Assembly: GCF_900604945.1 (NCBI RefSeq) | Contig: NZ_UWPB01000002.1 | Coordinates: 62,001-126,000 of the forward strand | Direction: 5' to 3' | Length of the DNA: 64,000 nucleotides | From: Ruminococcus sp. Marseille-P6503 | GTDB lineage: Bacteria > Bacillota > Clostridia > Oscillospirales > Ruminococcaceae | In this document: piece by piece, positions 2,943 to 61,479 of the stretch | Numbering within the stretch: position 1 is the stretch's first letter | Layout: each line of letters opens with the position of its first letter | The notes under the pieces: model-generated | Told to the model about the DNA's origin: nothing | Seen by the model: only the letters and a program-made list of their open reading frames with translations | Databases searched by the model: none | Made by a program: the position numbers and the translations under genes

Positions 2943-3125
2943 ACCATAAAACTCCATTCTCCGCAGAAACAGATTATCATGGACATTGCCGTTCTGCGGG
3001 ACGGCAGCGCTCCGTATGGAAATAGGCTTAATAAAAATAAGCACAAAAATATATTTTATGCCACTTGTAATTGAACATTAATTATGTTAAAATAAAAATA
3101 TAAAATAGCTTAGGAGGATTTCACC

Positions 3126-3932: not shown

Positions 3933-3960
3933 CGCGCGGAGGCAAAAAAGTCACAAAATT

Positions 3961-4071
3961 CCGCTCTCTTTACGAGGGCGGTTTGTTTTGCTCAAAAAAT
4001 CCTCTTAATAGAATGTTATGTGTTCTGTTAAGGGGATTTTTTCAGCAAGCAGACCCGTATGGGCCTGCTTG
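3961..4071. terminator. Three stacked hairpins between convergent pilus genes
   Basis: Hairpin 1 (3961-3981, arms CCGCtCTC/GAGgGCGG) is followed by TTTGTTTT and ends pilD. Hairpin 2 (about 3994-4042) has long arms with A-run/T-run ends on both sides, so it can stop transcription in both directions. Hairpin 3 (4048-4071, AAGCAG-CCC/GGG-CTGCTT) lies just after the stop of the leftward prepilin gene. Confidence 0.75.
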
Positions 4072-4077
4072 GAATTA

Positions 4078-4722
4078 TTATGAAATAGGCTCGTAATAAA
4101 TATAAATTGCGCTGTCATCTGTCCCTTCATTTACTGAAAATGATACGTTTGTGTTTTTAAGCATATCCCCATTATTAATATTGGTAAATGTAATAGACTT
4201 GCTGTAATTATAAATTACATCTGTATTCTTTACATATGCTCCCCCTTCATATTTCATAGGACAGCCCTCAAAATCCAGCATTAAAAAGCATTTTTCCGAA
4301 TCAGAATTGTATTCGCCTACAGTAATGCTATAAGCGTCCTCTCCATAAAAAGGTTCGCCCATTATTACCGACGAATTTGTTCCGTCAGCATCACTTTTAA
4401 TAACAACTCCCGGCGCTCCTTTTTTGCTGCCGCTTCTTGATCCTGTATTGTCTATTTTAAGAAGCTTAGTGCAGCCACTTGGCGGAGTACTGGGGTTAGT
4501 ATCGTTATAGTATACCGCAACCTTTCTCGCATACTGAATCTCATCAGCTATTGCGTCGCCCACAGCAATACAAACAGCTTCCTGATTTGTGGTGTTTTCA
4601 ACCTTATTGTGAAATTTCGCCGTCGGCGACATTATTGCCATTACCGCGCCCATTATAATTCCCATCAGCGCCATTACTACAATTAGCTCGACAAGAGTAA
4701 AACCTTTTTGATTTTTATTCAT
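4078..4722 (-). CDS. Type IV minor prepilin (pseudopilin-like)
   Basis: 214 residues. It has a class III prepilin signal: short basic leader MNKNQKG, cleavage after Gly7, then FTLVELIVVMALMGII with Phe1 and Glu5 of the mature helix. That matches major and minor pilins cut by PilD. The rest is a soluble, Asn/Ser/Thr-rich exodomain with few recognisable features, ending IYIYYEPIS. It is the last gene of the pilC operon and lies 18 bp after the preceding prepilin. It resembles PilW/GspJ-type minor pilins by position and size, but assignment to one subtype is uncertain. The DNA is more AT-rich than the assembly genes upstream. Confidence 0.85.
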   Translation of the reverse strand: MNKNQKGFTLVELIVVMALMGIIMGAVMAIMSPTAKFHNKVENTTNQEAVCIAVGDAIADEIQYARKVAVYYNDTNPSTPPSGCTKLLKIDNTGSRSGSKKGAPGVVIKSDADGTNSSVIMGEPFYGEDAYSITVGEYNSDSEKCFLMLDFEGCPMKYEGGAYVKNTDVIYNYSKSITFTNINNGDMLKNTNVSFSVNEGTDDSAIYIYYEPIS

Positions 4723-4740
4723 GTGTTTTTCCTCCTATGA

Positions 4741-5442
4741 CTACTTCATTCCGGTATCATCATATTTGTAGGTTTTTTTCCTGTCAGAATCAAAGCTGCT
4801 TTTATTTAGGCTATATGTTCCGTAAGTTGTGCCGGAATCTGTAACAAACCTAATCGTTATAGCTCCATCAGTAAACGACGAATTATAATAACCAAAATCA
4901 GCAGACTTGTTAGCCTGTACCGTTCTCACATAGCTTTTCGACGAATGTTTATATCCATCTGTGGTACTTCCTTCGTAAATATATCCGTCAGTTATCTCAA
5001 CATATGCAGTTATATTTTCCGATGAGTTGTTTTCAATATTTAATTTATATTCATCTTCTTTAGAATTGTCTGTTGATATGCTATTTATTGTACCTGACGT
5101 GAACGTTTTTATCTGAAAACCAAAATCTGCTCCGAACTGAGCCGCGTCGGCGGCATACAACGAAATATCATTAACGGTTTTGATAGATCCTCCGCCTACA
5201 GGAGTAAAAGTAATGGTATAATCTTTCTCAGAACCAATTACAGCCGTTTCCTGATCTGACTTTTTTCCAATTGCATTAGCCTGCTGCGCGGTTTCCAGAT
5301 CGCGTCTTCTGCTGCGGTTTGACATTTTCATCGCGGCGCCGACGACCGACATTATGCAAGCCGCCGCCAGCGCGAATATTGTCATTGAAACTATGACCTC
5401 TACAAGGGTCATTCCTTTGGAGAGCTTCTTGATTTTTTTCAT
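4741..5442 (-). CDS. Type IV minor prepilin
   Basis: 233 residues. Leader MKKIKKLSKG, then MTLVEVIVSMTIFALAAACIM, with Met at +1, Glu at +5 and the hydrophobic helix. The predicted cut is after Gly10. The exodomain starts with a basic RSRRRDLE stretch and continues as a beta-rich, Ser/Thr/Tyr-rich domain. It lies between the 741-residue prepilin and the 214-residue prepilin, so it is probably a member of a tip-priming minor pilin set (PilV/GspI-like by order). Start ATG with GGAGGGATTTTC upstream. The exact minor-pilin class cannot be told from the sequence alone. Confidence 0.83.
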   Translation of the reverse strand: MKKIKKLSKGMTLVEVIVSMTIFALAAACIMSVVGAAMKMSNRSRRRDLETAQQANAIGKKSDQETAVIGSEKDYTITFTPVGGGSIKTVNDISLYAADAAQFGADFGFQIKTFTSGTINSISTDNSKEDEYKLNIENNSSENITAYVEITDGYIYEGSTTDGYKHSSKSYVRTVQANKSADFGYYNSSFTDGAITIRFVTDSGTTYGTYSLNKSSFDSDRKKTYKYDDTGMK

Positions 5443-5454
5443 GAAAATCCCTCC

Positions 5455-7680
5455 TTAGCTTTTGTATTTGGTGAAGTATTCAAGTTTTAACACACCAGAA
5501 AGAGGTAATGCAGAATTTATAAAACCAAGAATTGAGTTATCAGCAGGAAGCACCCTTTCTATAAAAGCAGCATTCTGATTAGCTGCAACAGTAATTGACT
5601 TTGTTTTCACCTGACCATAAACTTTACTGCCGGCGTTATTTGGCAATTCATAATATGCATTGGGTCCATATATTATTGCCTGCAACGGCTGTTTCATTCC
5701 TGCTGTGCCATGCTTTAAAGTAATACCGTCAGGCAACAAAATAAAGATATTTGTAGTTGTTGAAGATGTATATAAATCACTTTTATTAAACTCGGCAAAC
5801 TCCTTATCGCAAATCAAAGGCGACTGTACATTCCTACCATTAAGATTATAAATAGGAGTTGTACCATCAGGATTTTCATTGTTTTTAGTATAGTAGTTAT
5901 TTAAAGTGTCATTGGGATCATAAAACATAAAGTAACAAAAATAGTCTCCAGTTTTATCATCATTATCAATTCTAAACTGCGTATTCAAGTTACCCTCCAT
6001 ATTAGTTAAAGGTAATAATACAACAATATCTTCATTAGTTAATTTTATTGTTATTTTTCCACCTTCCATTTCTGCTTGGTCGGTAGTCAAATAGCAACTT
6101 TTTTTAACAGTTATTCCATTTTTTAATGAATCATTATCAATATAATTATCTGAAACTTTTTCTCCAGTTGGATATGATGAATAAAGATTATGCATTAATG
6201 CGTCATTATATTTATCCTGTATATATTTAGCTGCTTTGGCTTTTTCAGTGTCTGAGTTTGTATAAGTACCAGCAGCATACATTGCATTTGGTGAAGCGGT
6301 TATACACGAAGAAGGTAAACTCAAAGTAGGATTATCTTTGACTCCATATTCATACAAACCAGGAGCATAGTCCATTGCCGGTTTAACTGCACGTACTAAC
6401 TCATCAGCATCAGTTGGCATTGAATTAATAATTTTATTTGTATCCATGTTATTAAGCCTTGACATATCAAAATTTGCATCACCATATTTATTTAAATTCT
6501 GATCATATATTGAACCAGTGTAATAAATCTTCCCCGTAACATTTAAACGGGTACCATTCTGGTTAAAAATATATATGTCCCCACCATCAACAATTAAATC
6601 GCCATTAATTGTGACTGTATTATTTGCATAAACAACAAAATCTCCGTCTTGAGCAGATGATGATCCTTTTATACAATAAAAATTACCATTAATAATTTGA
6701 CCTACATCATTAGTATTACTTCCACCATAGTCATTTTCTATTGTCGAGTACAATGCGCTATTATCTTTGTTACCATAATATTCCGGGACTTTGCCTATAA
6801 ATGCTCCACGACAATATATATCAATATCATTTTCTGAATCACCTATAGTAGGATTACCATTAGTTATAATTATCTTTGAATCAGTATTTATATATCCGTT
6901 CTTATTTAATAAAGCAGACTTATCATAAGTAGCATCCAGAGATGTTTTACCATTTTTGTCAGTTTTGCCCACATTTGTGGTCATTTCCAACTTATTAATG
7001 TATATATTTCCGAGAGCTGTGATTGTAGGAGCGTTACCTGTAAGAGTATCTTCAAATGTTTGTGTAGTCGTTCCGTCGCCTAATTTTATATTTCCGTTTG
7101 AATAAACATTGCTTTTATAGGAACCGTTATTATTCTTAAAAGTAGTTATTTTTGTTATATCTGAATTTTCAATCGTTATATCGCCTGAAACTGGTGCTGC
7201 TATATCATTAATATTATATGCATCATTAATTTCAATAGCGGCAACTGATTCATACGGATTACTGGCAGTTCCATCAAAATAAGCGCTAGCAACCTCAGTT
7301 TCCCCCGCATAAGTAGCCTCAGACTTTACAACAACTCCGCTGCCGCTCTTATAAATCTTGATCTGACAGGTTCCGGCGTCCGATACAGTATTACCGGCTG
7401 AATCCCGCATACTGACATTGACGATATTAGGAGATGATTCGCTCGTACCGGCAAGGCTTGCAAGATCATCATATTTGCCGCTAAAGCTGTTTATATACTC
7501 CTGCAAATAATTCTGCGCAGTAATCTCCGCCTGCGTACTGCGGATATTGTTATTGGACACCTTTGCGGAATAATTAGCCAGCGAAAGCGCGAGACTGGCG
7601 ATCAGCATACATACGGTAGTAAAGCATATTACCGTAAGCAAAACGGAACCCCTGCGGTTCTTCTTCATTCGCCTCTTCAT
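5455..7680 (-). CDS. Giant PilX-like prepilin with beta-rich exodomain
   Basis: 741 residues, about three to four times the size of a usual minor pilin. The leader (MKRRMKKNRRG) is followed by SVLLTVICFTTVCMLIASLALSLA. Like PilX/GspK proteins it lacks Glu5, which fits a tip position. From about residue 140 to 420 the sequence is full of short beta-strand-like repeats around NGNI, GDLIV and VTINGD, suggesting a beta-helix or bactofilin-like fold. The rest has no recognised domain. The start is ATG at 7680, with AGGTGG six bases upstream; an in-frame GTG at 7689 overlaps the Shine-Dalgarno. The exodomain DNA (5.5-7.3 kb) is clearly more AT-rich than its pil neighbours, hinting at an adhesin that changes quickly or was acquired. 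Confidence 0.8.
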   Translation of the reverse strand: MKRRMKKNRRGSVLLTVICFTTVCMLIASLALSLANYSAKVSNNNIRSTQAEITAQNYLQEYINSFSGKYDDLASLAGTSESSPNIVNVSMRDSAGNTVSDAGTCQIKIYKSGSGVVVKSEATYAGETEVASAYFDGTASNPYESVAAIEINDAYNINDIAAPVSGDITIENSDITKITTFKNNNGSYKSNVYSNGNIKLGDGTTTQTFEDTLTGNAPTITALGNIYINKLEMTTNVGKTDKNGKTSLDATYDKSALLNKNGYINTDSKIIITNGNPTIGDSENDIDIYCRGAFIGKVPEYYGNKDNSALYSTIENDYGGSNTNDVGQIINGNFYCIKGSSSAQDGDFVVYANNTVTINGDLIVDGGDIYIFNQNGTRLNVTGKIYYTGSIYDQNLNKYGDANFDMSRLNNMDTNKIINSMPTDADELVRAVKPAMDYAPGLYEYGVKDNPTLSLPSSCITASPNAMYAAGTYTNSDTEKAKAAKYIQDKYNDALMHNLYSSYPTGEKVSDNYIDNDSLKNGITVKKSCYLTTDQAEMEGGKITIKLTNEDIVVLLPLTNMEGNLNTQFRIDNDDKTGDYFCYFMFYDPNDTLNNYYTKNNENPDGTTPIYNLNGRNVQSPLICDKEFAEFNKSDLYTSSTTTNIFILLPDGITLKHGTAGMKQPLQAIIYGPNAYYELPNNAGSKVYGQVKTKSITVAANQNAAFIERVLPADNSILGFINSALPLSGVLKLEYFTKYKS

Positions 7681-7807
7681 AATTACCACCTTTCCATAAA
7701 ATAAAACATTACATTCAATTGACTATAATAAAATTTTTAATTATTATATAACACTTTTCGGCAGGGGCTTTTTCAGCCTTCTGCCTGCCAAAAAATGTAT
7801 TATAATT
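7681..7807 (-). other. Intergenic hairpin between pilO and the large prepilin
   Basis: A stem-loop at 7760-7789 (outer arms GGCAG/CTGCC, inner GGCT/AGCC) sits right after the pilO stop. On the minus strand it is followed by GAAAAGTGTTATATAAT and not by a T-run, so a full terminator is unlikely. It may be a partial attenuator or an mRNA-processing/stabilising element that sets prepilin levels. The AT-rich remainder may hold a weak internal promoter, but no good -35 box is seen. Confidence 0.4.
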
Positions 7808-8524
7808 TTATTCCGCCGCCGAATCAGCAGCCTCCTCCATCTCAAACATTTCCTCAGGAGAAAGTATCTGCGGAAGCATCATAAGATTCATAGTCATGGT
7901 TCCTTCTATCTCATCGGCGTTTACGTCCGTGATAGTACAGCTTGTAACTACCAGGCTCTTCTCGTTGTTTGTGGTAAGCTTATCAAGGAAAGACTTAAGA
8001 TCCTCAAACTCGCAGGTATATCCGAACGAAACCGTATAGCAGGGAATTGTCTCCGCGGTAGATTCCTGAACCTGAGTATTTGCCGCCGCGGCGTCAGCCG
8101 AGCTGTCGCCCTGACCCTCCAGCACTATATCTATATCCGTCTGCAATACCGTGCCGCTGTAGCTGAATTTGTCAAGCGCTACCGAAGAGTAAGCCGAAAT
8201 AGTCAGGCTGTCGTTTTTGATGTTATCTACATCAAGGAGAGTGTCGATCGTTTCCGCGACATCGTCGGTAGAAAGCTTTCCATAGAAATTTCCCGCTATG
8301 TTGGAAACATCGTCGTAAGCCTGATTGGCTTGCTGACGAAGATTCTCTTCATCCGCAACCTGCTTTTTCTTATTCTCATATTCTATAACCTTTTCAGTGT
8401 GCGTCTTGCTGGCGCTGTTCATATCCGCGAACGCCGGCTTGATGATAAGCATAAATCCGGCAACCCACACAGCAACGACCAAAACTGAAATCAAAATAAC
8501 TTTATCACGATATGTAAGCTTCAT
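7808..8524 (-). CDS. pilO: PilO-like inner-membrane alignment protein
   Basis: 238 residues. A short basic N-terminus is followed by one membrane helix (residues 9-28, VILISVLVVAVWVAGFMLII), then a coiled-coil stretch (35-75, Glu/Lys/Gln-rich) and a soluble ferredoxin-like domain. This is the layout of PilO, which dimerises with PilN in the pilus alignment complex. Its ATG overlaps the stop of the pilMN fusion by one base, a strong sign of translational coupling. The identification rests mainly on architecture and context, since PilO diverges widely in sequence. Confidence 0.82.
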   Translation of the reverse strand: MKLTYRDKVILISVLVVAVWVAGFMLIIKPAFADMNSASKTHTEKVIEYENKKKQVADEENLRQQANQAYDDVSNIAGNFYGKLSTDDVAETIDTLLDVDNIKNDSLTISAYSSVALDKFSYSGTVLQTDIDIVLEGQGDSSADAAAANTQVQESTAETIPCYTVSFGYTCEFEDLKSFLDKLTTNNEKSLVVTSCTITDVNADEIEGTMTMNLMMLPQILSPEEMFEMEEAADSAAE

Positions 8525-10002
8525 TATTCCTCACCCTGTCCTTTCATGTAAAGCTGAAGCGATGTGATAATAACAGGATCATCGCTCTCGCCCGTTCCGG
8601 TGTAGCCGGAAAACTGAACGTCGGCAAAATAGTTAAGATTCTTTATAGCTCTTACAAATTCAGGAGCCTCAAGCTGCTCGGTAAGCTTTACGTTCGAGAT
8701 CGTTACAAGACCCTGAGTTTCATCGTAAGTAAAGCCTTCGTACTCAATTTCCGAGCCTGTTGCCGAATCGATCTGATCAAACACCTGCTTTTTCAGCACA
8801 GGAAGAGATGAAAGATTGCTCTTTGCGTTTTCAACCATTGTCTTATAGCTTTCCGCCATGGTCAGGTACGCGTGATAAACCTTATTTCCCTCGATTATTT
8901 CATCGCACTGGGAAATATCATTTTCCACCGCGGCTATATCGTCCCGGATACCGTCCTCTCTGATTCCTATAAAAAGCGTAATCGCAGCTATCGCGATCGC
9001 CGAAGCGCATATTATAACGCCTGCCGTAACCAGAAGCGAGCTGACTCCGGCGCTGGACTTTCCGGTAGACGAATCGACCTCCAGAAGATTAATACGTTCA
9101 GTCTGCTTATTTCTTCTGTAAAGCGCTCCTATCGCGTTGGCAAAAACCGTAAACTCAAAATTTTCATATCCCGTGATCTGAGCGGGAACTCCGAGGATAG
9201 ACGCCTTGATATCAAGCTCGTCAAGAGCGTCGACAAGCTTTATGTAATCGTCGATCTGTCCGTACAAAATTACATTGTCAAGTCCCGGACCGCCTCTCGC
9301 CTTATTGAACTGCTCCATTCTGAAAATATTCTCATTAAGAGCCTCAATAAGATAATCCTCCGTTTCGTAATCCTCCGGCGAAATGGGGACGTATCTTGCA
9401 AACGCCATCTGTCCGTTTTCAAACAAAGTAAGACCGAGGAAGTTATTATCAAGCTGACAAACCAGCAAAGGCATTTTTTCAATATTTGACTTGTCGGCAA
9501 GAACGATTCTTGAAATTGAGTTACAGCTGATATTTACCGATTTCAGATTCAGGCTCATTATATTGAACAGCTTTCTGAAGGCTTCCACTATAGAGCTGGG
9601 GCAGGCGGTCGCCAGAACCTTGAGAGCACCCGGATTTTCCTCTCCGGCCTCTCCTACTATAGTATACGAAATTGAATACTCATCAGTGATACCCATCTCC
9701 TGGCTCATGTGGTTCTGAACCATTGTCAGAAATTCGTTGCCCTTTGCCTTAGGCACGACAAGCTCCTTAAATACGATATTGCTGGACGAAAAAGTAACTA
9801 TCGCGTCCTTGTCGTCCATCAATTCCGACTTCAGATTGGTCGTAAGCAGCTCGGCAAGACCGGAAAGGTTGATAACCTCTCCGTTGATAATCATATCCTC
9901 CGGAACGTCTACGGTCAGAGATTTTTCAATTCTGATCTTATTGGCGGAGTTATCGCCCATAACAATATTGATTTGTCTATCAGATATGTCAAATGACAGC
10001 AT
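8524..10002 (-). CDS. PilM-PilN fusion protein
   Basis: 492 residues in one open frame. Residues 1-300 match the actin-like PilM fold (MLSFDISDRQINIVMGDN start, later RGGPGLDNVILYGQ). At residues 303-307 comes INLLE, the N-terminal motif of PilN that normally binds PilM in trans. One membrane helix (about 322-344) and a PilN-like soluble domain to the end follow. Separate PilM (about 350) and PilN (about 190) are the norm, so this is a natural fusion that tethers the cytoplasmic ring to the membrane partner. It is followed directly by pilO (one-base overlap) and preceded by pilC. No frameshift or internal start is needed to read it. Confidence 0.88.
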   Translation of the reverse strand: MLSFDISDRQINIVMGDNSANKIRIEKSLTVDVPEDMIINGEVINLSGLAELLTTNLKSELMDDKDAIVTFSSSNIVFKELVVPKAKGNEFLTMVQNHMSQEMGITDEYSISYTIVGEAGEENPGALKVLATACPSSIVEAFRKLFNIMSLNLKSVNISCNSISRIVLADKSNIEKMPLLVCQLDNNFLGLTLFENGQMAFARYVPISPEDYETEDYLIEALNENIFRMEQFNKARGGPGLDNVILYGQIDDYIKLVDALDELDIKASILGVPAQITGYENFEFTVFANAIGALYRRNKQTERINLLEVDSSTGKSSAGVSSLLVTAGVIICASAIAIAAITLFIGIREDGIRDDIAAVENDISQCDEIIEGNKVYHAYLTMAESYKTMVENAKSNLSSLPVLKKQVFDQIDSATGSEIEYEGFTYDETQGLVTISNVKLTEQLEAPEFVRAIKNLNYFADVQFSGYTGTGESDDPVIITSLQLYMKGQGEE

Positions 10003-10028
10003 CTATCCTTCACCTCATTCTAAAAATA

Positions 10029-11225
10029 TTAACTGTTTTCGATTCCTTCCATTCCGCCGTAAAGCATCGGGAATATAGCTACCAGACAAAGACCTATGGC
10101 AAGACCCATGATAATGATCATAAGAGGCTCCATCAGGCCTACAAGTCTTTCGACCGCGGCGTCGGCTTCTTCTTCGTAGTAATCCGCGGTTTTTTCAAGA
10201 ATCTCGTCAAGCGCGCCGGATTCCTCGCCGACGTAAATTATCGAGCAGAACATACCCTCGAATATTTCCGTCCTTGCCAACGACTGGGAAAGCGGAGCGC
10301 CCTGCTTGACCTCGTCGATTACCTGAATGAACAATTTATCTACATATGAATTTCCAAGTATCCTTGACGAACGCTCAAGACATTCCACCATTGAGATACC
10401 GCTTGAATAAAGCGAAGAAAGCGTTCTCGCAAACCTTCCCTCGTATATCTTCACCATAAGCGGTCCTACCGCGGGCATTTTTATTTTAATTCTGTCGAAC
10501 CACAGCCTTACCGATTCAACCTTGAGAGCATAGATCCAGCCGACTATCAGAACGATTATCGCCGCTATCAGTATGTAGTATCTTTCCTTTATAAAATCGC
10601 TGAACGCAAACATTCCTTTCTGAAGCGCGTTCATGTTTTCCTCGCCCATCATTCCCGCAAACTGAGGCAGGATAAGCGTAAACATTCCGATTACCATTAC
10701 TATGCACAGAATTCCGAGAATAATAGGATAGGTCATCGCGCTCTTTACCTTGTTGTTCAGCTTGTTGCTGTTAGCGTAATAATCGCTCAGACGCTGCATG
10801 GTTATATCAAGGTTTCCGGCTGACTCGCCCGCGTCCACCATGCTTATAAAGAAATCGGGGAAGCTTCCCTTGCGCGCTTCAAGAGCCTCGGTAAAGGTAG
10901 AACCTTTGTTAACGTCCTCATAAACGCCAAGCCAGGTTTCCTTCGCGCCCTTGTTTTCCTCCTCTTTATACAGAATATCCAAAGCCTTGACGATCGTAAG
11001 TCCTGACGACATCATCGCCGCCAGCTGACGGCAGGAAAAAGCCAGCGCTTTGGTTTTAAATTTATAAACGCTCTTCTTGGATCCGCCTAAAGCCTCGCTG
11101 TAGCTGACGCAGAACCAGCCCTGCTCGTGAATTTTGTCACGCACCTCCTGCTCGTTCTCCGCCTCAATAACACCTTTCATGGTCTTTCCGGTGGTATCCT
11201 TAGCAACATAGGTAAACTTTTTCAT
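10029..11225 (-). CDS. pilC: PilC type IV pilus platform protein
   Basis: 398 residues, standard for the family. Inner-membrane platform that links the PilB/PilT motors to pilin assembly. It has an N-terminal leader domain (MKKFTYVAKDTTGKTMKGVIEA), then two T2SSF domains (about 68-190 and 270-395) with three hydrophobic segments near 170, 215 and 370. The first contains LAAMMSSGLTIVKALDIL and the second ARTLSSLYSSGISMVECLE, the usual paired motifs. The start at 11225 was chosen because the family begins at MKKFxY; a GGAGG site lies somewhat far (13 bases) upstream. First gene of the minor-pilin operon. Confidence 0.95.
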   Translation of the reverse strand: MKKFTYVAKDTTGKTMKGVIEAENEQEVRDKIHEQGWFCVSYSEALGGSKKSVYKFKTKALAFSCRQLAAMMSSGLTIVKALDILYKEEENKGAKETWLGVYEDVNKGSTFTEALEARKGSFPDFFISMVDAGESAGNLDITMQRLSDYYANSNKLNNKVKSAMTYPIILGILCIVMVIGMFTLILPQFAGMMGEENMNALQKGMFAFSDFIKERYYILIAAIIVLIVGWIYALKVESVRLWFDRIKIKMPAVGPLMVKIYEGRFARTLSSLYSSGISMVECLERSSRILGNSYVDKLFIQVIDEVKQGAPLSQSLARTEIFEGMFCSIIYVGEESGALDEILEKTADYYEEEADAAVERLVGLMEPLMIIIMGLAIGLCLVAIFPMLYGGMEGIENS

Positions 11226-11303
11226 TTTTCCAGTTACACCTCCACTGTGTAAACGCATTCCGGCGGCCGTTTTCACTAAACCAACACAAAACGCATTTTT
11301 ATT

Positions 11304-21396: not shown

Positions 21397-21684
21397 AATA
21401 CACCTCTGTATATGTATTAAAATATTTATACGGTATCGCCCTAATATTGTACCACACATACCCGAAAATATCAAGTCCAAGGGTAATTTTAAAGAAATCT
21501 CCCGCTCATACCCGCAGAACCTAGCTTTCTGACACCGCCATTAATAAATCCCAAAGAAACTTTTTTCAGTTCTTCCAATGAAAAATATACTTGCCTGACT
21601 CTCTGAATTAAAAACCGGACGCAGTCAACAATAAAATCATAAAGGATAAAAAACGGAATCTGAAAAAAGAAAGGAATGATCAAA

Positions 21685-22938
21685 ATGGGCAGGTTAATAA
21701 AAAGCGCGGCAGCGGCGATCGGGATAGTTACGCTCGGAATCATGGGACTGGTCGGATTTTATTCCAGCGCGCTGCCGGATTTTTACTATGTTTCAGACGG
21801 CGGTCAGCTTACAGTCAATTCAATGTTTTCAATTTCTGCCGAATCCTCCGGACAATCGGTTCAGGCAGCAGAATCATTGGAGGGAAAAACAGAGGTGAAT
21901 ATTAAAAGCTCGGAGGCTTCCGTAACAAAGGTTGAGGACAAAACCTTAATGCTTTTCGGCACGATTCCGATCAAGGACGTTCAAACAGGTCAGATATCAA
22001 GGCCAAAGCTTGTTCCGTGCGGACAACCCTTCGGAATAAGACTCGTCACTGACGGCGTAATGGTCATCGACCTTGAAAAGCTGGAGGGCGGCTGTCCCGC
22101 GGCGGAATGCGGCATCAAAAAAGGAGACGTTATAATTTCCGTAAACGGAGTAAGCGTTTCCACCAACAAAGGAATAAGCGATATTATATCCGGTTCAAAG
22201 GGAAAGCCCTGCACAGTCGAGTACAGAAGCGGCAGCGATGAAAAAACCGCCACGCTTACTCCGGTCTACCACGACGGCACATACAAAGCCGGAATATGGG
22301 TAAGAGATTCTTCAGCCGGAATCGGAACGCTTACATTTTACGATCCAAGCTCGGGAGCCTTCGGAGGGCTGGGTCATCCCATCTGCGACGCCGATACAAA
22401 GCTTCCTCTGCCTCTTTCCCACGGCACTGTCGGAGAGGTGAAAATAACCGGCTTCAACAAAAGCGTAAAGGGCGACCCCGGTCAGCTGCTGGGCGAGTTT
22501 TCCTCGTCAGCGTCGGTCGGAGACATAGCTTTAAACAACGAATCAGGCGTTTTCGGAACGCTCAACGCCTCTCCCAGCGAGCATAAAGCAATAGAACTCG
22601 GCTTTCGTCAGGAGGTCCACACAGGCGAAGCGTCGATTTATACTACGATAGACGACGGAGAAACCAGAGAATATAAAATCAGCATAGAAAAGGTCGATCT
22701 CAGCGACGACGCGGAGCATGACCTGATAGTTAAGATCACCGATCCGGAGCTGCTTGAAAAAACAGGCGGTATACTTCAGGGCATGAGCGGAAGTCCCATT
22801 ATTCAGGACGGAAGGCTGGTAGGAGCGGTAACCCACGTATTTATTGACGACCCTCAGCAGGGCTACGGAATATTTGCCGACTCAATGTACAGCAATTCGT
22901 CAAAATGCTCAAAGACGGAGCTTGGACTTGCAGGCTGA
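21685..22938 (+). CDS. spoIVB: SpoIVB peptidase (S55 family)
   Basis: 417 residues. Serine protease made in the forespore and secreted into the intermembrane space, where it triggers pro-sigma-K processing and so late mother-cell gene expression. N-terminal membrane anchor (residues 8-26), PDZ domain (about 115-195, GGCPAAECGIKKGDVIISVNG), then the S55 domain with the catalytic His in GLGHPICD and Ser in GMSGSPIIQDGRLVGAVTHVF. The start is ATG at 21685 with AAAGGA upstream; another ATG three codons earlier abuts the Shine-Dalgarno. The spoIVB-spo0A order is conserved in Firmicutes. No sigma-F/G promoter could be defined with confidence. Confidence 0.95.
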   Translation: MGRLIKSAAAAIGIVTLGIMGLVGFYSSALPDFYYVSDGGQLTVNSMFSISAESSGQSVQAAESLEGKTEVNIKSSEASVTKVEDKTLMLFGTIPIKDVQTGQISRPKLVPCGQPFGIRLVTDGVMVIDLEKLEGGCPAAECGIKKGDVIISVNGVSVSTNKGISDIISGSKGKPCTVEYRSGSDEKTATLTPVYHDGTYKAGIWVRDSSAGIGTLTFYDPSSGAFGGLGHPICDADTKLPLPLSHGTVGEVKITGFNKSVKGDPGQLLGEFSSSASVGDIALNNESGVFGTLNASPSEHKAIELGFRQEVHTGEASIYTTIDDGETREYKISIEKVDLSDDAEHDLIVKITDPELLEKTGGILQGMSGSPIIQDGRLVGAVTHVFIDDPQQGYGIFADSMYSNSSKCSKTELGLAG

Positions 22939-23310
22939 CAACCGCGCAACAGCGTGAAATCCCTCAAATCTTATCATTTTCTGAAGTTAGAATTTTGTCG
23001 GTTAATACTATACCATGTCTTATAAACAAGAATTATTAATTATTGTTATATTTCTTGCTGATTAGTTGTTATTTTTGCACAAAGCAGTCGATAAAAAATT
23101 GACGTTTTTTCTAAAAAAGTATTGATTTTTATATTTACCTGTGCTAAAATATTTCTAGTGAAGAAATAACTCAGCTGATATTTTCTTGTAAAGTTCCTAG
23201 ATAACGGCACTGAGCATTCTGTATTTACAAAATAGTCGACGATTTTATTTTACAGCAATGCAGTTGACCCAAGCTTTAATCTGACATTTAAATTTACGGA
23301 GGAAATAATT
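22939..23310 (+). promoter_or_regulatory. spo0A upstream control region and promoter
   Basis: 372 bp with no gene. A good sigma-A promoter lies at 23122-23150: TTGATT, 17-bp spacer, TAAAAT, giving a 150-nt leader. Three weak TGTCGAA-like (0A box) words are seen (near 22996, 23087 and 23232), none a full match. No sigma-H promoter with the usual spacing was found. No terminator is seen after spoIVB, so some read-through is possible. Confidence 0.5.
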
Positions 23311-24093
23311 ATGACAAACAAAATCAAGATTCTTATCGGTGACGATTCCGCTCAGTACGGAGTAAGCTGCGCTTCTGCCCTCAGATCAATGGGCTTCTTT
23401 GTGATCACCCGCCCCAAAGACGGTCTTACTATTTTTGACGCCATCAAAAACGAAGTTCCGGACGTGGTTATCATAGAAGCGGTAATGCCGAATCTGGACG
23501 CTATCGAGCTTATAAAGAAGCTTCAGGCTTCTTCCTATAAAAAGCCGTTGTTTATTGTTACCAGCGCTTATGAAAATTCATTCATCGAACAGCAGGTAAT
23601 GACCGCGGGCGCGGCATATTTTATGCTTAAGCCTTTCGACGTAAAAATTCTCGGAGAGCGCATAAAAGCCATGCTGGACATCGACACCGATATCGTTTCC
23701 GATATGTCCTTTTCAAGAGCAAAGTCCAATCCTAATCTGGAGATCATAGTTACCGACATTATCCATCAGATCGGAGTTCCCGCCCACATCAAAGGCTATC
23801 ATTATCTGAGAGAAGCGATAATTCAGTCGGTCAATGACAAGGAAATGCTTGAGAGCGTTACAAAGCTATTATATCCCGCGGTTGCTAAAAAATTCAGCAC
23901 GACGCCGTCAAGAGTTGAGCGCGCCATCAGACACGCGATTGAAATCGCATGGGACAGAGGCGATATTGACACTCTCAACAGCTTTTTCGGCTACACTGTA
24001 AACACCGGAAAAGGAAAGCCTACAAATTCCGAGTTTATCGCGCTTATCACGGATAAGATATGCCTGAAATATAAAACCACCATGCCGGCATAA
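23311..24093 (+). CDS. spo0A: Spo0A sporulation master regulator with Glu at the phosphorylation site
   Basis: 260 residues. The receiver domain (1-125) keeps the acidic pair Asp11-Asp12, Thr84 and Lys107, but the phosphoryl-accepting Asp is Glu56 (IIEAVMP where the family has LDIIMP); the codon is GAA at 23476-23478. The C-terminal DNA-binding domain (about 145-260) is well conserved, including [15 protein letters not shown] and [22 protein letters not shown]. In other receivers an Asp-to-Glu change can mimic or prevent phosphorylation, so activation here may not need a phosphorelay. Start ATG with GGAGGAAATAATT upstream. It follows spoIVB in the usual order. Confidence 0.96.
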
Positions 24094-43104: not shown

Positions 43105-43596
43105 ATGGACAAAACGCAAAGATACACAGTAAGAGTTCCGGCAGATATGGCTGGAAGATTGGAACAAAAAGCCGCCGCCGAACATATTACCGTATCAGAC
43201 CTTGTAAGGCGTTACATTGACAAAGGGCTTAATATGGAAGGGTATAAAACAGAGATTGATTTCTTAACTGAAATCATGCAGACGGTTTTATCCGGCATAC
43301 TTGAACCGCAGGTAGAGAGAATTATTAAGCTGATCATAAAGCTTGGCAAGATTACCGGCGGAAGCTATTATCTTCAGCTCGCTAATCTGTTAAACGAGGA
43401 TAACAAATCTGACATCGGGGATATATCTGAAATTGTAAACCGCTGTAATCGTTTGGCTATAAAATATATGTCGCAGAAGGACAGCGATGTTGAAAGATTT
43501 CTGCTCAATAACACAGAGCTGCTGAAAGAAGCGCTTAGGCTTAAGGATAATCCTTACGGATTCGATTTTAACGCGATAGGCGGCAGTGATGAGTAG
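43105..43596 (+). CDS. Ribbon-helix-helix accessory mobilisation protein
   Basis: 163 residues. N-terminal CopG/Arc-like RHH domain (TQRYTVRVPADMAGRLEQKA, then HITVSDLVRRYIDKGL), followed by a helical C-terminal domain. By position (oriT-side, overlapping the relaxase gene) it is a MobC-like DNA-binding protein that assists nicking. AGGAGG precedes ATG at 43105. The relaxase start lies eight bases before its stop, so the two are translationally coupled. Confidence 0.85.
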   Translation: MDKTQRYTVRVPADMAGRLEQKAAAEHITVSDLVRRYIDKGLNMEGYKTEIDFLTEIMQTVLSGILEPQVERIIKLIIKLGKITGGSYYLQLANLLNEDNKSDIGDISEIVNRCNRLAIKYMSQKDSDVERFLLNNTELLKEALRLKDNPYGFDFNAIGGSDE

Positions 43597-44827
43597 CGCC
43601 GTTCTCATATATAAGGCGAGAGGATATAACAAGCGGACTGACGGCAACCGAACCGTTAAGAACATGGCTCATGTAGAATACATAGCTACCCGACCGGGAG
43701 CGTGGAAAGAGCCTGAACAGGAAAGCGCGCTGTTCGGCAGCTTTAATCAGCAGTTTCTTAACGTTATTTCCGTAGAAGACGGCATGAAGACGATTGCCGA
43801 GGTCACGGATAAATATAAGACGACATACCGGGATGTGATCTCATTTACCTCAGAGCAGGCTGCTCATCTTGGACTTAACACTCTTGGGGACTGGAAAAAA
43901 TACGTCAAGGAACAGGTTCTGGTAATTGCCAAGGAAAGAGGGATAAAGTATGAAAATCTTGAATGGGAAGCGGCAATTCACAATAAGAAGGGACAGCCTC
44001 ATGCTCACATAGTAATGTGGGACAAATCAAACGCGATCCAGCCTAACAGTTTTGATACAAAGCTATACAAGCAAACCCGCAGAAAGCTGATTCAGAAAAC
44101 ATACAAGCCGGAGTTCCAGGAATTTTTCAAGACGCAGAATGAAGCAAAAAACGTACTTCGAGCCGACAGCAGAGCGATTCTTAAAGAATTTGAGGAATAT
44201 TTAGCTTCTCAGAGGATAAACACCTGTGACGTAAATGATTATCTTGACGGAACGGTCCAATTTGACGTTTCCGGGTTAAGCAGCTTTGATATTCTCAACA
44301 CTCCTAACGCGGAGGATATTTTGGTGGAATATCTTCGTGTGAGAATGGTAGTGATGAAGCACAAAGGCCGATTAGCGTACAGGTGTCTGGCGCCGGAGCG
44401 TAAAGTCATGGTAGATAATTTTGTGAAGCTGCTGCTTAACAGCAATGATAAGCTAAAAGCGTTGGCTGATAATTTTGTTTCAGCTCATATTGAGGTTTTT
44501 AAGTTTTATTCGGCAAAGGACAACGAACTGAAATATGAGGCCGGAAAATATTCAAAAATTGCGGTAAAAATGATAGCAAACGCTCTTTTACAATCAATGA
44601 AAGACTATCAGTTTGAAGACTGCCTTCAGGACGGAGAAGCCGGACAGCGGCAGGCGGAGTATATAGCCGGAGGGATACTGGCGGCGTTTGCAAATCTGGC
44701 TAGGCTTATAAGGCAGAGCAGCGCGAGAGCTGCGGAATATAACGCTTTGTCTAAAAGCGGCGATCTGTCAAAGGAAGCTATAAAAGAGCTTATAAAGCAA
44801 AGAAAGGACAGGGGGTTGGAAATTTGA
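43589..44827 (+). CDS. MobP-family relaxase
   Basis: 412 residues. Nicks oriT and stays bound to the 5' end of the transferred strand. The histidine motif GQPHAHIVMWD near residues 148-158 (HxH) is the metal site. Expected Tyr lies in the N-terminal region (VEYIATR near 30). The layout fits the MobP3-like relaxases of clostridial ICEs. The C-terminal half is helical and ends RKDRGLEI. The start is ATG at 43589, overlapping the RHH gene. Overlap of four bases with the coupling-protein gene. Confidence 0.85.
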   Translation: MSSAVLIYKARGYNKRTDGNRTVKNMAHVEYIATRPGAWKEPEQESALFGSFNQQFLNVISVEDGMKTIAEVTDKYKTTYRDVISFTSEQAAHLGLNTLGDWKKYVKEQVLVIAKERGIKYENLEWEAAIHNKKGQPHAHIVMWDKSNAIQPNSFDTKLYKQTRRKLIQKTYKPEFQEFFKTQNEAKNVLRADSRAILKEFEEYLASQRINTCDVNDYLDGTVQFDVSGLSSFDILNTPNAEDILVEYLRVRMVVMKHKGRLAYRCLAPERKVMVDNFVKLLLNSNDKLKALADNFVSAHIEVFKFYSAKDNELKYEAGKYSKIAVKMIANALLQSMKDYQFEDCLQDGEAGQRQAEYIAGGILAAFANLARLIRQSSARAAEYNALSKSGDLSKEAIKELIKQRKDRGLEI

Positions 44828-46917
44828 AAAAAGGCAAAATACCGCTGCTGATCATATTATTCGGGATAGCTTGCGCTATCAGCTTTTTTACGGCTCCGGG
44901 CGTTTATCTGTTCATATCCAAGCAAACAGATAAATTTAAAGCTTGTCCTCCGCAAGCTTGTTTTGAGATACTCAAAGCTGAAAAGGACGCTCGGATGCTT
45001 TTCATATGTATTGCCGGATTTGCATTGATACTGTGTTACTTTCTGCTGTTTTCAAACACAAAGGACGATTACCGCGCGGAGCTGTACAGCGTTACTCCTG
45101 ACATTCAGATACCTAAGCCTGTCGGGCAGTATCAGCACGGATCCGCGTGGTTTTTATCCGCCGATAAATTCTGTGAGGATTACCCGATTGTAAAGATCAA
45201 CTTAAAAGCTCCTGTTTTCCGCTATCTTTTGCAGCATGGAAAACAGGATATAAATGAAGTAAAGAAATACCGCATATCCAATGGAGAACTCAGGCAAAGA
45301 AAGCTTTTTCAAAAACTGCCGCACAGAAAGGTATATATTTGTCTTTTAAACAAATATACTCACTCGGAGCTATATCTTAAAAGGCAGGCAAAAATGCTAA
45401 AAAGACTAGATACCGAACCGCTGAAAAACACGGGCGGAGGATTAGTTGTCAGTTATAGGAAAAAATGGCATACAGAACTGTTAAATGTTCTGATAAACGA
45501 TGTTCACTCTATGTGCATAGGCTCAACAGGTTCAGGCAAATCACGATATCTGGTTATACAGTCAATAATATGTCAGCTGCTTGCCGGTGAATCGGTTTTT
45601 GTATCCGACATCAAAGGTGAACTTTATCAATATTTATGCAGACTGCTTGAAAGACTGGGCGTAAATGCAATAGTGCTTGATTATCGTGATATGAGTAAAT
45701 CAATGAGCTATAATTTTTTACAGCCCGTCATTGATAAGCTTAAATCCGGCGATGTGAATAAAGCAATGCAGCTGTGCCGCGATTACGCTACAATGATTGC
45801 CGGAAAGAAAAGTGAACAGACAGAGTCTCTTTGGCACGATGGAAAGGTTGCCGTATTGGCTGCCGGAATGATGGCCTGCACCTATGATAATATGGATCAT
45901 CCTGAAAATCAGAATTTATGCTATGTATATGAGTGGCTTACGCGAATGTGCGCCGAGCGACCAGGGGGAAAGGGACTTCTGCTGAATGAATATCTGAAAG
46001 CCGTAGGGGAGGAACATCCTGCGAATCTTATTTTCGCGCAGGCGAAGGTTGCCCCAAGCAAAACAAGAGGCAGCTTTTATACCTCAGCCTGTACGGCGCT
46101 TACCGTATTTACTGATCGGCAGCTGTATCACATATGCAGCAAGTCGGATTTTAAGCTTACCGACCTTGCGACAAAAAAGACTGCCATGTTTGTAATACTT
46201 CCGGAGAGCAAGACAACTTTTTATCCGCTGGTATCGCTTCTTGTATCTCAGATTTACGAAGCTTTGGACGATTACAGCAACAATGTTCTGGGATCAGGGC
46301 GGCTGCCTCGCAGAGTGCACTTTGATCTGGACGAGTTCGGTAATTTTTCGCCATTCCCTGATTTCAACATGAAACTGACGGTAGCCCGTTCAAAGGGTAT
46401 TATATTCAATCTGTTTCTGCAGAGCTTTGCTCAGATGAAGGAGAATTACAACGATAACATATGCGAAATAATCAAAGGCAACTGTACAAATCAGATATAC
46501 CTTAAATCTACCGATGATTCCGGCACAAACAAAGCTATATCGGACAGCTTGGGTAAATATACAACATCAAGCTATTCACTCTCATCAAACAGCGGCAAAT
46601 ATAACAGCAGCGGATCTACTTCAATGAATCTGTCTGAACGTAATCTGCTATATCCCGACGAGCTGAAGCGTCTGAAAAGGCCATATATGCTTGTGATCGG
46701 TGACAGCGGCTGCAAGATCACAAAGTCGCCAGATCTGAGCAAATGGGCATTTAATAAAATGCTTGGCTTAGGAAACAGAAAGCATAATGAAAAGGTAAGA
46801 GCTTTAAGACAAGCTCAGAGACCTAAGCTTCAGGATGTCGATAAGCCGCCAAGCTATACCGGTATGTGGAAGCTAAAAAATTTTACGGATTTTCTTAAAA
46901 AGCAAAAAAGATTATAA
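44824..46917 (+). CDS. VirD4/TraG-family coupling ATPase
   Basis: 697 residues. Brings the relaxase-DNA complex to the mating channel. Two N-terminal membrane helices (about 5-25 and 57-75), then the TraG/VirD4 ATPase domain: Walker A GSTGSGKSR near 235, Walker B FDLDEFGNF near 501, and a RecA-like C-terminal region with LFLQSFAQMKENY. Start TTG, overlapping the relaxase stop. The preceding gene and this one are clearly one operon. Confidence 0.93.
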   Translation: MKKGKIPLLIILFGIACAISFFTAPGVYLFISKQTDKFKACPPQACFEILKAEKDARMLFICIAGFALILCYFLLFSNTKDDYRAELYSVTPDIQIPKPVGQYQHGSAWFLSADKFCEDYPIVKINLKAPVFRYLLQHGKQDINEVKKYRISNGELRQRKLFQKLPHRKVYICLLNKYTHSELYLKRQAKMLKRLDTEPLKNTGGGLVVSYRKKWHTELLNVLINDVHSMCIGSTGSGKSRYLVIQSIICQLLAGESVFVSDIKGELYQYLCRLLERLGVNAIVLDYRDMSKSMSYNFLQPVIDKLKSGDVNKAMQLCRDYATMIAGKKSEQTESLWHDGKVAVLAAGMMACTYDNMDHPENQNLCYVYEWLTRMCAERPGGKGLLLNEYLKAVGEEHPANLIFAQAKVAPSKTRGSFYTSACTALTVFTDRQLYHICSKSDFKLTDLATKKTAMFVILPESKTTFYPLVSLLVSQIYEALDDYSNNVLGSGRLPRRVHFDLDEFGNFSPFPDFNMKLTVARSKGIIFNLFLQSFAQMKENYNDNICEIIKGNCTNQIYLKSTDDSGTNKAISDSLGKYTTSSYSLSSNSGKYNSSGSTSMNLSERNLLYPDELKRLKRPYMLVIGDSGCKITKSPDLSKWAFNKMLGLGNRKHNEKVRALRQAQRPKLQDVDKPPSYTGMWKLKNFTDFLKKQKRL

Positions 46918-59655: not shown

Positions 59656-61479
59656 TTGAAAAAGAAAAACACTTCAGCAGATAAACAGATAAATAATTCT
59701 GTAGTGAACGTCATATCCCCTCAGTCATTATTCAATAACATAAAGGATATTGAAATATCAGGGTATAAGGCGGAGGGATATTTTGTGAGTAAATATCCCG
59801 GCAGGCTTGACTACGACTGGCTTACCAGAATCGTTAATATGGAAAACTCCATTGTCAGCATAGGAGTTTCACCGGTCGACGAAGCGGAATTTTTAGACGC
59901 GCTTAACAGAAACATAATCAACAAGGAAAATGAAGCTGAAGAAAACAATAATCCTCTTAAGCAGCAAAGAGCTGAAACTGCCGCAAATGACAGCAGAAAG
60001 CTAATGCAGGAAATTGACAACGAGGGTATCTCAGTATGCCAAATGGGGATAAACTTTCTTACGGTTGCTCCAAACGATAAGGAGCTGCAGAGAGCTTCAA
60101 GACGTGCAAAATCAATTCTGTCCGGTATGGGCATAAAGACCAGACTTGCCTCAAGAAGACAAGATAAAATACTTAAGCAATGCGTTCCCACCTATACTTT
60201 AGATCCGGAGGTAAATCAGATAAGCAACAGAATAGTGCCACTGACAACGCTTATCGGCGGTTTTCCTTTCAGCTCGTCCGGCTTCTCCGATGTAAACGGA
60301 GACTATTTTGCTAAATCTCTGGACAACAATATTATGATGATCGACTTCTGGTACAGAGGCGGCGACCGCACAAATTCAAATATGGTTATAATGGGACAGG
60401 CGGGTCAAGGCAAATCGGCTTTTGTCAAGGCGTTTGCGATAATTCAGTTTAAAAACGGAGTAAAGCAGATTTTTATTGATCCTGACGCGGAATATGTTGA
60501 GCTTGCTCATAATCTCGGCGGAGCGGTCATTAATCTGGGCGGAGGCGGCAATACAAGGATAAATCCGCTTGAAATACGTCCGGCGCCGAAGGACGAAGAA
60601 AAAGAGCTGAACAGATTATACATAGACGATGGAAACGGCATGGGAGATCTTGCGCTTCATATTAAGACCCTCGAAATTTTCTTTTCAATGTATCTTCCTG
60701 ATTTAACTATGATACAGAAGTCATTATTGAAAAAAACAATAATCGAGCTGTACAGTCAGTTTGATATAACCTGGGAAACAGACGTTACAAAGCTGTCGCA
60801 TACTGATTTTCCGATTTTTTCAGATCTCTATAGGCTGCTAAAGCAGAAGCTGGAGGAAAGCGGCGGCGATAAAGATTATCGGGAGCTTGTAGAGCTGCTT
60901 ACAGATATATCCGAAGGCTCGGACAACTTTATATGGAACGGTCACACGACGCTCGATACAGAAGCTGATATTATCGTACTGAACACCAAAGCGCTTCAGA
61001 CAACGCCGGACACAGTTAAGCGGACTCAGTATTTTAACATACTGACCTGGTGCTGGGAGCAGATGACTAAAGACAGAGAAACTAAAGTATTACTCTATGA
61101 AGACGAGGCTTATCTGTCTATTGACCGCAGCGTTCCTCAGTCGCTTGCCTGGCACAGAAACTCCATTAAGCAGGACAGGAAATACGAGGCCGGAATAGTT
61201 ATCATATCCCACAGCGTTGTTGATTTTCTTGATCCTGATATTAAGCTGTACGGACAGGCAATGCTTGATATACCTTGCTACAAAGTGCTTTTCGGCACAG
61301 ACGGACAGAATCTGCTGGAGCTGAAGCAGCTTTACAACCTTACCGAAGCCGAGGAAGAATTATTATTGAAGAAGAAAAGAGGTCAGGCGCTCTTTTTTGC
61401 AGGCTCCAAACGTTTGGGAGTGCGCTTTGAGATTCCTGACTATAAGCTGGAAATGATGGGGACGGCAGGAGGCAGATAA
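59656..61479 (+). CDS. VirB4/TraE conjugation ATPase
   Basis: 607 residues. Powers T4SS assembly and substrate movement. Short N-terminal part (to about 200), Walker A GQAGQGKSAF near 252, Walker B KVLLYEDEAYLS near 477, and the VirB4-like HRNSIKQDRKYEAGIVIISHS. Start TTG or ATG near 59656; AGGAGGT precedes it. It lies directly after the N-terminal-like gene and before the M23-like gene. Confidence 0.93.
   Translation: MKKKNTSADKQINNSVVNVISPQSLFNNIKDIEISGYKAEGYFVSKYPGRLDYDWLTRIVNMENSIVSIGVSPVDEAEFLDALNRNIINKENEAEENNNPLKQQRAETAANDSRKLMQEIDNEGISVCQMGINFLTVAPNDKELQRASRRAKSILSGMGIKTRLASRRQDKILKQCVPTYTLDPEVNQISNRIVPLTTLIGGFPFSSSGFSDVNGDYFAKSLDNNIMMIDFWYRGGDRTNSNMVIMGQAGQGKSAFVKAFAIIQFKNGVKQIFIDPDAEYVELAHNLGGAVINLGGGGNTRINPLEIRPAPKDEEKELNRLYIDDGNGMGDLALHIKTLEIFFSMYLPDLTMIQKSLLKKTIIELYSQFDITWETDVTKLSHTDFPIFSDLYRLLKQKLEESGGDKDYRELVELLTDISEGSDNFIWNGHTTLDTEADIIVLNTKALQTTPDTVKRTQYFNILTWCWEQMTKDRETKVLLYEDEAYLSIDRSVPQSLAWHRNSIKQDRKYEAGIVIISHSVVDFLDPDIKLYGQAMLDIPCYKVLFGTDGQNLLELKQLYNLTEAEEELLLKKKRGQALFFAGSKRLGVRFEIPDYKLEMMGTAGGR

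Follow-up and report, generated by a model that had tools for sequence, protein, structure and literature searches.

What governs Spo0A when its receiver domain lacks the aspartate that is normally phosphorylated? The question is raised by the spo0A gene of Ruminococcus sp. Marseille-P6503 (genome G000; 7 contigs totalling 2.64 Mb, with 99.98% completeness), which lies in the 64,000 nucleotide stretch of DNA analysed here and referred to below as the window. Phosphorylation of Spo0A has been called the key switch into sporulation in bacilli and clostridia (PMC3533761, PMC11210211; all papers given by PMC number are cited from extracts), and having spo0A is taken as an initial criterion for a potential spore former (extract of PMC11536998).

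A Spo0A with glutamate at the phosphoacceptor position

The open reading frame at 23311–24093 matches the Spo0A profile TIGR02875 over its full length (273.9 bits, residues 3–256, in a profile search with a curated cut-off of 200 bits). Its receiver is recognised by the Response_reg profile (56.6 bits) and its DNA-binding domain by Spo0A_C (152.5 bits), with the recognition helix intact. When the protein is aligned with the solved Spo0A receiver 5wq0, Glu56 stands at the Asp of LLLDIIMP, so that the phosphorylatable Asp56 is absent and the normal phosphate acceptor is lost, as the initial annotation had claimed from the Glu codon that it read at this position (GAA at 23476–23478, within 23461–23490). 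The other active site residues, Asp11, Asp12, Ser85 and Lys107, are retained. The annotation was right about the acidic pair and Lys107, but it had taken Thr84 for the conserved Ser/Thr, whereas the alignment puts Ser85 there with Thr84 preceding it. Judged by its sequence, the window protein is Spo0A by descent, the canonical phosphorylated mechanism forming no part of that claim, and its receiver fits the aspartate-less (or pseudo-) receiver class, being recognised by its profile in the absence of the acceptor Asp.

Table 1. Coordinates of features in the window
Feature	Coordinates	Strand	Remarks
spoIVB, SpoIVB peptidase, directly upstream of spo0A	21676..22938	+	TIGR02860, 338.4 bits
0A-box-like AGTCGATAA (predicted)	23086..23094	+	225 bases before spo0A start
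spo0A, 260 aa	23311..24093	+	receiver ~7-118, Spo0A_C DNA-binding domain 147-250
codons 11-12, Asp-Asp, acidic pair retained	23341..23346	+	
codon 56, GAA (Glu), phosphoacceptor position	23476..23478	+	
codon 85, Ser at conserved Ser/Thr position	23563..23565	+	alignment to 5wq0, column counts
codon 107, conserved Lys, retained	23629..23631	+	
RVERAIR, core of recognition helix	23911..23931	+	
relaxase-like ORF	43586..44827		putative integrative conjugative element
VirD4-like ORF	44824..46917		putative integrative conjugative element
VirB4-like ORF	59656..61479		putative integrative conjugative element

Elsewhere in the window, by reading of the open reading frames alone, the stretch 34132–63421 resembles an integrative conjugative element, with ParA/ParB-like frames in addition to those in Table 1, and a cluster at 1266–11276 resembles those of type IV pili or type II secretion, its frames being GspE/PilB-like, prepilin peptidase-like, pilin-like and PilC-like.

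Glu56 within Ruminococcus

Spo0A is present in all 16 genomes of the genus, with Asp56 in 11 and Glu56 in five (G000, G002, G008, G010 and G014). Glu56 is also found in two named assemblies, L043 ('uncultured Ruminococcus sp.') and L044, whose proteins are identical to those of G010 and G002 respectively and which are probably the same genomes. The window's Spo0A is 97% identical to that of L043 and 81% identical to that of R. albus. In a best tree of 36 rows with column 56 omitted, the seven Glu56 rows from Ruminococcus (the five genomes plus the two identical named rows) group together as a single, weakly supported clade (81/52); this tree requires three changes at residue 56, and the Asp56 row nearest to the window's Spo0A is that of G015. 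The initial annotation had raised the possibility of a clade in which Glu56 is fixed, and at this level of support there is one, comprising five of the 16 genomes.

Over the 10 pairs of Glu56 proteins the receiver has a mean pN of 0.047 and a mean pS of 0.74 (pairwise pS 0.51–0.86), most pairs being saturated so that dN/dS proper is based on few of them, and the DNA-binding domain has a pN of 0.017. Positions 56, 72 and 230 are the only ones that distinguish every Glu56 from every Asp56 protein of the genus. Because pN is low relative to pS and just three positions separate the two sets of proteins, the Glu56 receiver, as far as these comparisons go, is under strong purifying selection and is not decaying.

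Recurrent loss of Asp56 across the order

From the named relatives we infer that the surveyed order is Oscillospirales, and we will refer to it simply as the order. A Spo0A_C match occurs in 184 of its 197 genomes, from which we took 110 proteins, one per genome, comprising the 30 best-scoring loci and 80 chosen for spread over families and genera; the 80 were drawn among the matches listed, where the weakest matches are absent, and 74 matching genomes lie outside the sample. Residue 56 is Asp in 81 of these proteins, Glu in 16, Asn in seven, Ser in two, Gly and Trp in one each, and deleted or unalignable in two. Elsewhere in the class 101 of 118 genomes have a Spo0A_C match, four of these belonging to the same order, and among 70 sampled from the other 97 the residue is Asp in 67, Glu in one, Asn in one and masked in one, which was dropped to leave 69. 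Asp56 is thus absent from 29 of 110 proteins in the order as against 2 of 69 in the rest of the class (p 2.6e-5). Of the 80 nearest named loci one has no gene call; in the other 79 we see Asp in 64, Glu in 12, and Asn, Pro and Ser in one each. A FastTree phylogeny of 275 rows (274 scored, column 56 omitted) requires at least 32 changes between Asp and non-Asp, a figure that near-duplicates and tree error make rough.

The combination of an acidic residue at 11, Asp56, Ser/Thr85 and Lys107 is complete in 62 of the 110 order proteins compared with 63 of 69 elsewhere in the class. Four residues of the recognition helix that we take to touch DNA, Arg201, Glu203, Arg204 and Arg207 (RERR), are found in 80 of the 81 Asp56 proteins of the order, one being gapped, and in all 29 non-Asp56 proteins. 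The window's Spo0A has the same four residues, which together with its Spo0A_C score bears out the annotation's view of an intact DNA-binding domain.

Other departures from the usual receiver were seen in this survey. At loci L164 and L166 (genomes G178 and G203) the acceptor loop of Spo0A is deleted or unalignable, and SpoIVA, SpoIIR and SASP are present. Lys107 is replaced by Met or Ile in Anaerotruncus sp. G3 (L061), Anaerotruncus colihominis (L066) and Clostridium sporosphaeroides (L087), all with Asp56 retained; the latter two species are spore formers.

Spore genes and the status of sporulation

SpoIVA, SpoIIR and SASP, which are markers and no proof of sporulation, were surveyed in 80 genomes (the 16 of the genus, all 29 with non-Asp56 proteins and 35 of the 81 with Asp56). 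Outside the genus, SpoIVA is found in 29/29 non-Asp56 versus 34/35 Asp56 genomes, SpoIIR in 27/29 versus 31/35, and SASP in 27/29 versus 32/35; two of the four Asp56 genomes without SpoIIR, G044 and G103, are members of a neighbouring genus. As the markers do not differ between the two groups, losing Asp56 does not go along with losing these markers. A single Spo0A_C gene is present in 20 of the 29 non-Asp56 genomes, 17 of which retain all three markers. We suggest tentatively, at rather less than even odds, that an unphosphorylatable Spo0A is a recurrent sporulation strategy in the order, in which receivers escaped kinase control repeatedly without loss of the DNA-binding domain or of spore genes, and in which paralogues with pseudo-receivers may be new signal inputs.

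Within Ruminococcus, SpoIVA is found in 15 and SASP in 13 of the 16 genomes, and SpoIIR in none of the 16, Asp56 and Glu56 alike. G000 retains the sets spoIIAA-spoIIAB-sigF, spoIIGA-sigE, sigG, spoIVA and spoIVB as well as one SASP. The matches for spoIVA (700.5 bits), sigE (362.7), sigG (399.1), spoIVB and spoIIAB are above their curated cut-offs; those for spoIIGA (67.3 of 209.55), sigF (213.4 of 321.45) and spoIIAA (90.9 of 114.75) are below, and these three genes stand in the usual gene order. The SpoIIGA-like gene and sigE are thus kept in G000 although SpoIIR was found in no genome of the genus.

The initial annotation spoke of entry into sporulation, which presumes that the organism sporulates, and this cannot be taken as given with SpoIIR missing from the 16 genomes and with R. 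albus 7 appearing in PMC3533761 (Table 5, extract, with a caution on such profiles) as a non-spore-former that carries Spo0A. According to the same extract R. albus 7 is without spmA, spmB, spoIIM, spoIIR, spoIIIAB, spoIIIAF, spoIIIE, spoVE, yabQ and yqfC. The Spo0A of R. albus (L048, L049) has Asp56. With SpoIIR missing in the genus, Spo0A there may no longer drive sporulation.

An explanation along these lines is that sporulation in Ruminococcus has been lost or is being lost, and that Spo0A is kept for stationary-phase or metabolic control with selection for its phosphorylation lapsed. The genus-wide lack of SpoIIR beside its frequency outside, the R. albus 7 profile and the three G000 proteins under their cut-offs are all consistent with it, but SpoIVA and SASP persist in most of the genus, G000 retains the gene sets listed above, the Glu56 receiver is not decaying, and elsewhere in the order the loss of Asp56 is not accompanied by loss of spore markers. 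Moreover, SpoIIR loss is common to Asp56 and Glu56 genomes and so does not track the change at residue 56. We regard this explanation as unlikely, though it deserves to be kept in view.

Glu56 as a possible mimic of phosphate

The initial annotation proposed that Glu may mimic the phosphorylated state, and in its strongest form this would mean that Glu56 is a true phosphomimic that locks Spo0A in the active state, with expression alone starting the program. Among the non-Asp residues of the order Glu is the most frequent (16 of 29), above the 26% at which it is the commonest replacement in aspartate-less receivers, themselves common according to the extract of PMC4395418, and the pocket that a mimic would need (Asp11, Asp12, Ser85 and Lys107) is retained in the Ruminococcus Glu56 receivers. 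On the other hand, Asp to Glu is one base change, which would itself enrich Glu, and other lineages of the order have Asn, Ser, Gly or Trp at site 56. The Asp-to-Glu substitution alone is, in addition, often insufficient, with Spo0A named as a case (PMC4395418, extract, citing Green 1991). Mimicry of phosphate is accordingly unproven, and we doubt that Glu56 is a lock of this kind.

Histidine kinases and other components of phosphate control

HisKA and Response_reg searches covered the same nine genomes of the genus. A response-regulator domain lies within 2.2 kb of 13/13 HisKA kinases in G000, 11/11 in G010, 2/2 in G002, 4/4 in G014 and 2/3 in G008, that is of 32 of the 33 in the five Glu56 genomes, the 33rd (in G008) being interrupted by a contig end. 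None of the 33 frames contains a receiver among the receivers listed (19 of 24 for G000), and with 32 paired and one at a contig end we found neither an orphan nor a hybrid HisKA kinase in the Glu56 clade, as judged against these receivers, the annotation having asked whether orphan kinases are missing. The paired kinases could cross-talk.

The longest HisKA frames in the Glu56 genomes are of 828, 844 and 822 aa, and from their size and pairing are probably KdpD. HisKA frames do not exceed 844 aa in any of the Glu56 genomes, whereas 10 of the 11 Asp56 genomes of the genus have one above 845 aa (Fisher p 0.0014, kinship ignored), the exception being G011, which is 74% complete. As the five Glu56 genomes form one clade, this contrast amounts to one evolutionary event. 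Receiver matches lie in frames of hybrid length in G006, G007, G012 and G015, and in the remaining six Asp56 genomes hybrids are assigned from frame length. G015 has two HisKA-HATPase-REC-REC hybrids, one bearing an SBP_bac_3 sensor, together with a PAS-HisKA kinase with no regulator seen nearby; a G015 kinase 2.7 kb from a regulator was counted as paired, the limit in the script being 2.6 kb. The independent Glu56 lineage G061 has 11 HisKA matches, with one frame of 901 aa, which may or may not be a hybrid, and the others of at most 559 aa, and it counts neither for nor against the pattern.

Small size or incompleteness of the genomes was considered as the cause of the missing hybrids. Size alone fails to explain it, since there are two hybrids in G015 (2.0 Mb) but none in the larger G000 (2.64 Mb) and G010 (2.2 Mb); this cause is insufficient for G000 and G010 and possible for G002, G008 and G014, three of the five Glu56 genomes being 80–93% complete.

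HATPase_c matches occur at 23 places in G000, 13 of which are the HisKA kinases. Four further proteins adjoin regulators (L251, L252, L254 and L255), and the other matches include L258, which reads as CheA-like, SpoIIAB (190.6 bits) and three proteins of 644–712 aa. An unpaired HATPase_c protein of 372 aa (L253:2119–3234, minus strand) has no HisKA match and no neighbouring regulator, is flanked by genes reading as gpmI and gap, and has FLGNIRLELSEII as its would-be H-box, without His. Its counterpart in G010 (L257:2121–3179, minus strand) has the same gene position, and on sequence the two are a pseudokinase candidate in two Glu56 genomes.

The initial annotation suggested that sporulation entry here might not rely on a phosphorelay; this would not be special to the strain, as the review PMC11210211 (extract) already gives the relay as absent from Ruminococcaceae. 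What is special to the Glu56 clade is the missing acceptor combined with the missing orphan and hybrid kinases. The one single-domain receiver of G000 that was examined as a possible Spo0F was not taken as such, since it scores best with the CheY model, below the CheY cut-off. A Spo0E-type phosphatase (PF09388) was found in none of 80 genomes of the order, the B. subtilis control being positive, and as this absence is order-wide it gives no contrast for the turnover of phosphate on Spo0A.

These results also bear on whether Spo0A continues to act as a switch, set by phosphate or by some other modification of Asp11/12, Ser85, Thr84 or Glu56 itself. The conserved pocket residues would allow for it, and Glu can be modified (PMC4395418, extract), but, as far as the listed receivers go, the Glu56 genomes yielded no orphan or hybrid HisKA kinase that could be dedicated to it; the lack of the phosphatase points the same way but, being common to the order, provides no contrast. 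We consider such a switch highly improbable. An assembly or sequencing error, for which we found no point in favour, can be set aside with near certainty because Glu56 is seen in five genomes of the genus, with GAA as its codon in three of them and GAG in the other two.

Spo0A paralogues and a site upstream of spo0A

Thirteen of the 16 Ruminococcus genomes contain one to four extra Spo0A_C matches. G000 has two additional proteins, paralogue A (L002, L042:8865–9689) and paralogue B (L003), in both of which Pfam recognises Spo0A_C only. Paralogue A is flanked by a ylmC-like gene and sigG, with spoIVA 4 kb away, and lies between spoIIGA-sigE and sigG-spoIVA. Its AlphaFold model has a receiver-like N-terminal domain followed by a Spo0A_C domain (mean pLDDT 82), and a structure search with it gives the full-length regulators VraR and DesR as best matches, with Spo0F (1srr, 6ifh) and Spo0A (1lq1, 5wq0, 1qmp) in the top 20. 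Paralogue B is modelled poorly (mean pLDDT 56.5), so that just its N-terminal domain was used, and loosely; it gives a looser match to receivers, with FrzS first. Spo0A_C proteins with degenerate receivers were also noted as a family, seen in G000 (C7; L042:8865–9689 and L041:8651–9415) and at loci L019–L037.

Position 56 is Ser in paralogue A and Thr in paralogue B, and with Glu in Spo0A itself Asp56 is absent from all three G000 proteins. Both paralogues retain Glu203, Arg204 and Arg207, with Ser at residue 201. There are 19 further paralogue rows in the genus, two of them fragments lacking column 56, and Asp is present in four of the other 17 (L026, L032, L033 and L034), three of which have other pocket residues changed; L026, from the Asp56 genome G004, retains Thr85 and Lys107. 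The N-terminal domains of the paralogues diverge while the C-terminal domains are conserved, and we suggest, as a conjecture, that the paralogues are partners or competitors of Spo0A.

Upstream of spo0A in all five Glu56 genomes we find (T/A)GTCGATAAAAAA. The 0A-box-like site in Table 1 is weak on its own, as 33 of 300 shuffles of the upstream stretch contain an equally good match. The exact sequence TGTCGAA, which we take to be the B. subtilis-type 0A box, occurs within 373 bases upstream of spo0A in one of 16 genomes, which is not above expectation. The variant TGTCGATAA is present exactly in 2/5 Glu56 and 3/11 Asp56 genomes, with one mismatch in a further three of each, and with two mismatches in the other five Asp56 genomes; it is found at neither of two loci of R. 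albus (L048, L049), and as this motif was chosen post hoc it is suggestive only. The predicted site hints at autoregulation of spo0A.

Discussion

Taking these results together, we propose, with a probability of roughly 0.55, that this Ruminococcus clade has a Spo0A that naturally lacks the aspartate but is a functional regulator, uncoupled from histidine kinases and governed by its amount or by its partners. In this model, Glu56 would preserve the negative charge of the receiver pocket and hold the receiver in a single conformation, allowing some dimerisation and DNA binding in the absence of phosphate. Control of Spo0A by phosphate would be absent. Output would then be set by the quantity of Spo0A, with the 0A-box-like upstream site hinting at autoregulation, and partner proteins would possibly add control, for which the two Spo0A paralogues, with their degenerate receivers, are the obvious candidates.

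If roughly one in four Spo0A proteins in a gut order are unphosphorylatable at the usual site while spore genes are retained, the textbook switch is not universal; searches for kinases in this order would then be seeking the wrong input, and the presence of spo0A would tell less than is assumed. The Asp56 and Glu56 species of Ruminococcus provide a natural experiment on disconnecting a response regulator from its kinases. In the titles and abstracts that we searched, which leave most subscription journals outside their coverage, we found no description of a natural Spo0A without Asp56, nor of its recurrence in one order.

The window protein shares its two domains with the Spo0A of Bacillus and Clostridium (TIGR02875; 1lq1, 1fc3, 1qmp, 5wq0), and the DNA-binding domains are closely alike. 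Unlike these proteins it has Glu at the phosphorylated Asp, in a genome that yielded neither orphan nor hybrid HisKA kinases. In the orphan-kinase-driven Spo0A systems of Clostridia no Spo0F/Spo0B relay is expected, and likewise here; in those systems the conserved Asp is phosphorylated and hybrid and orphan kinases act, or are thought to act, on Spo0A (PMC11210211, extract), and the Asp56 species of Ruminococcus seem to be alike in having such kinases.

Aspartate-less receivers such as those of ChxR and RitR likewise combine an acceptor-less receiver with a DNA-binding regulator (PMC4395418, PMC12632262; extracts). ChxR has Glu at the acceptor site, like the window's Spo0A, and works without phosphate (extracts of PMC4395418 and PMC3960148 respectively). 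Both acidic residues and the Lys are kept here, the second acidic residue being kept in 29% of aspartate-less receivers (PMC4395418, extract). Unlike these examples, the protein described here is the master regulator of endospore formation, and its loss of the acceptor is recurrent across one order. BldM and WhiI of Streptomyces, which we take to belong to a family other than Spo0A and whose spores are different in kind from endospores, provide a model for Spo0A and its paralogues, heterodimers being conjecture in the present case. These two orphan atypical response regulators control development as a heterodimer (PMC4125116, extract).
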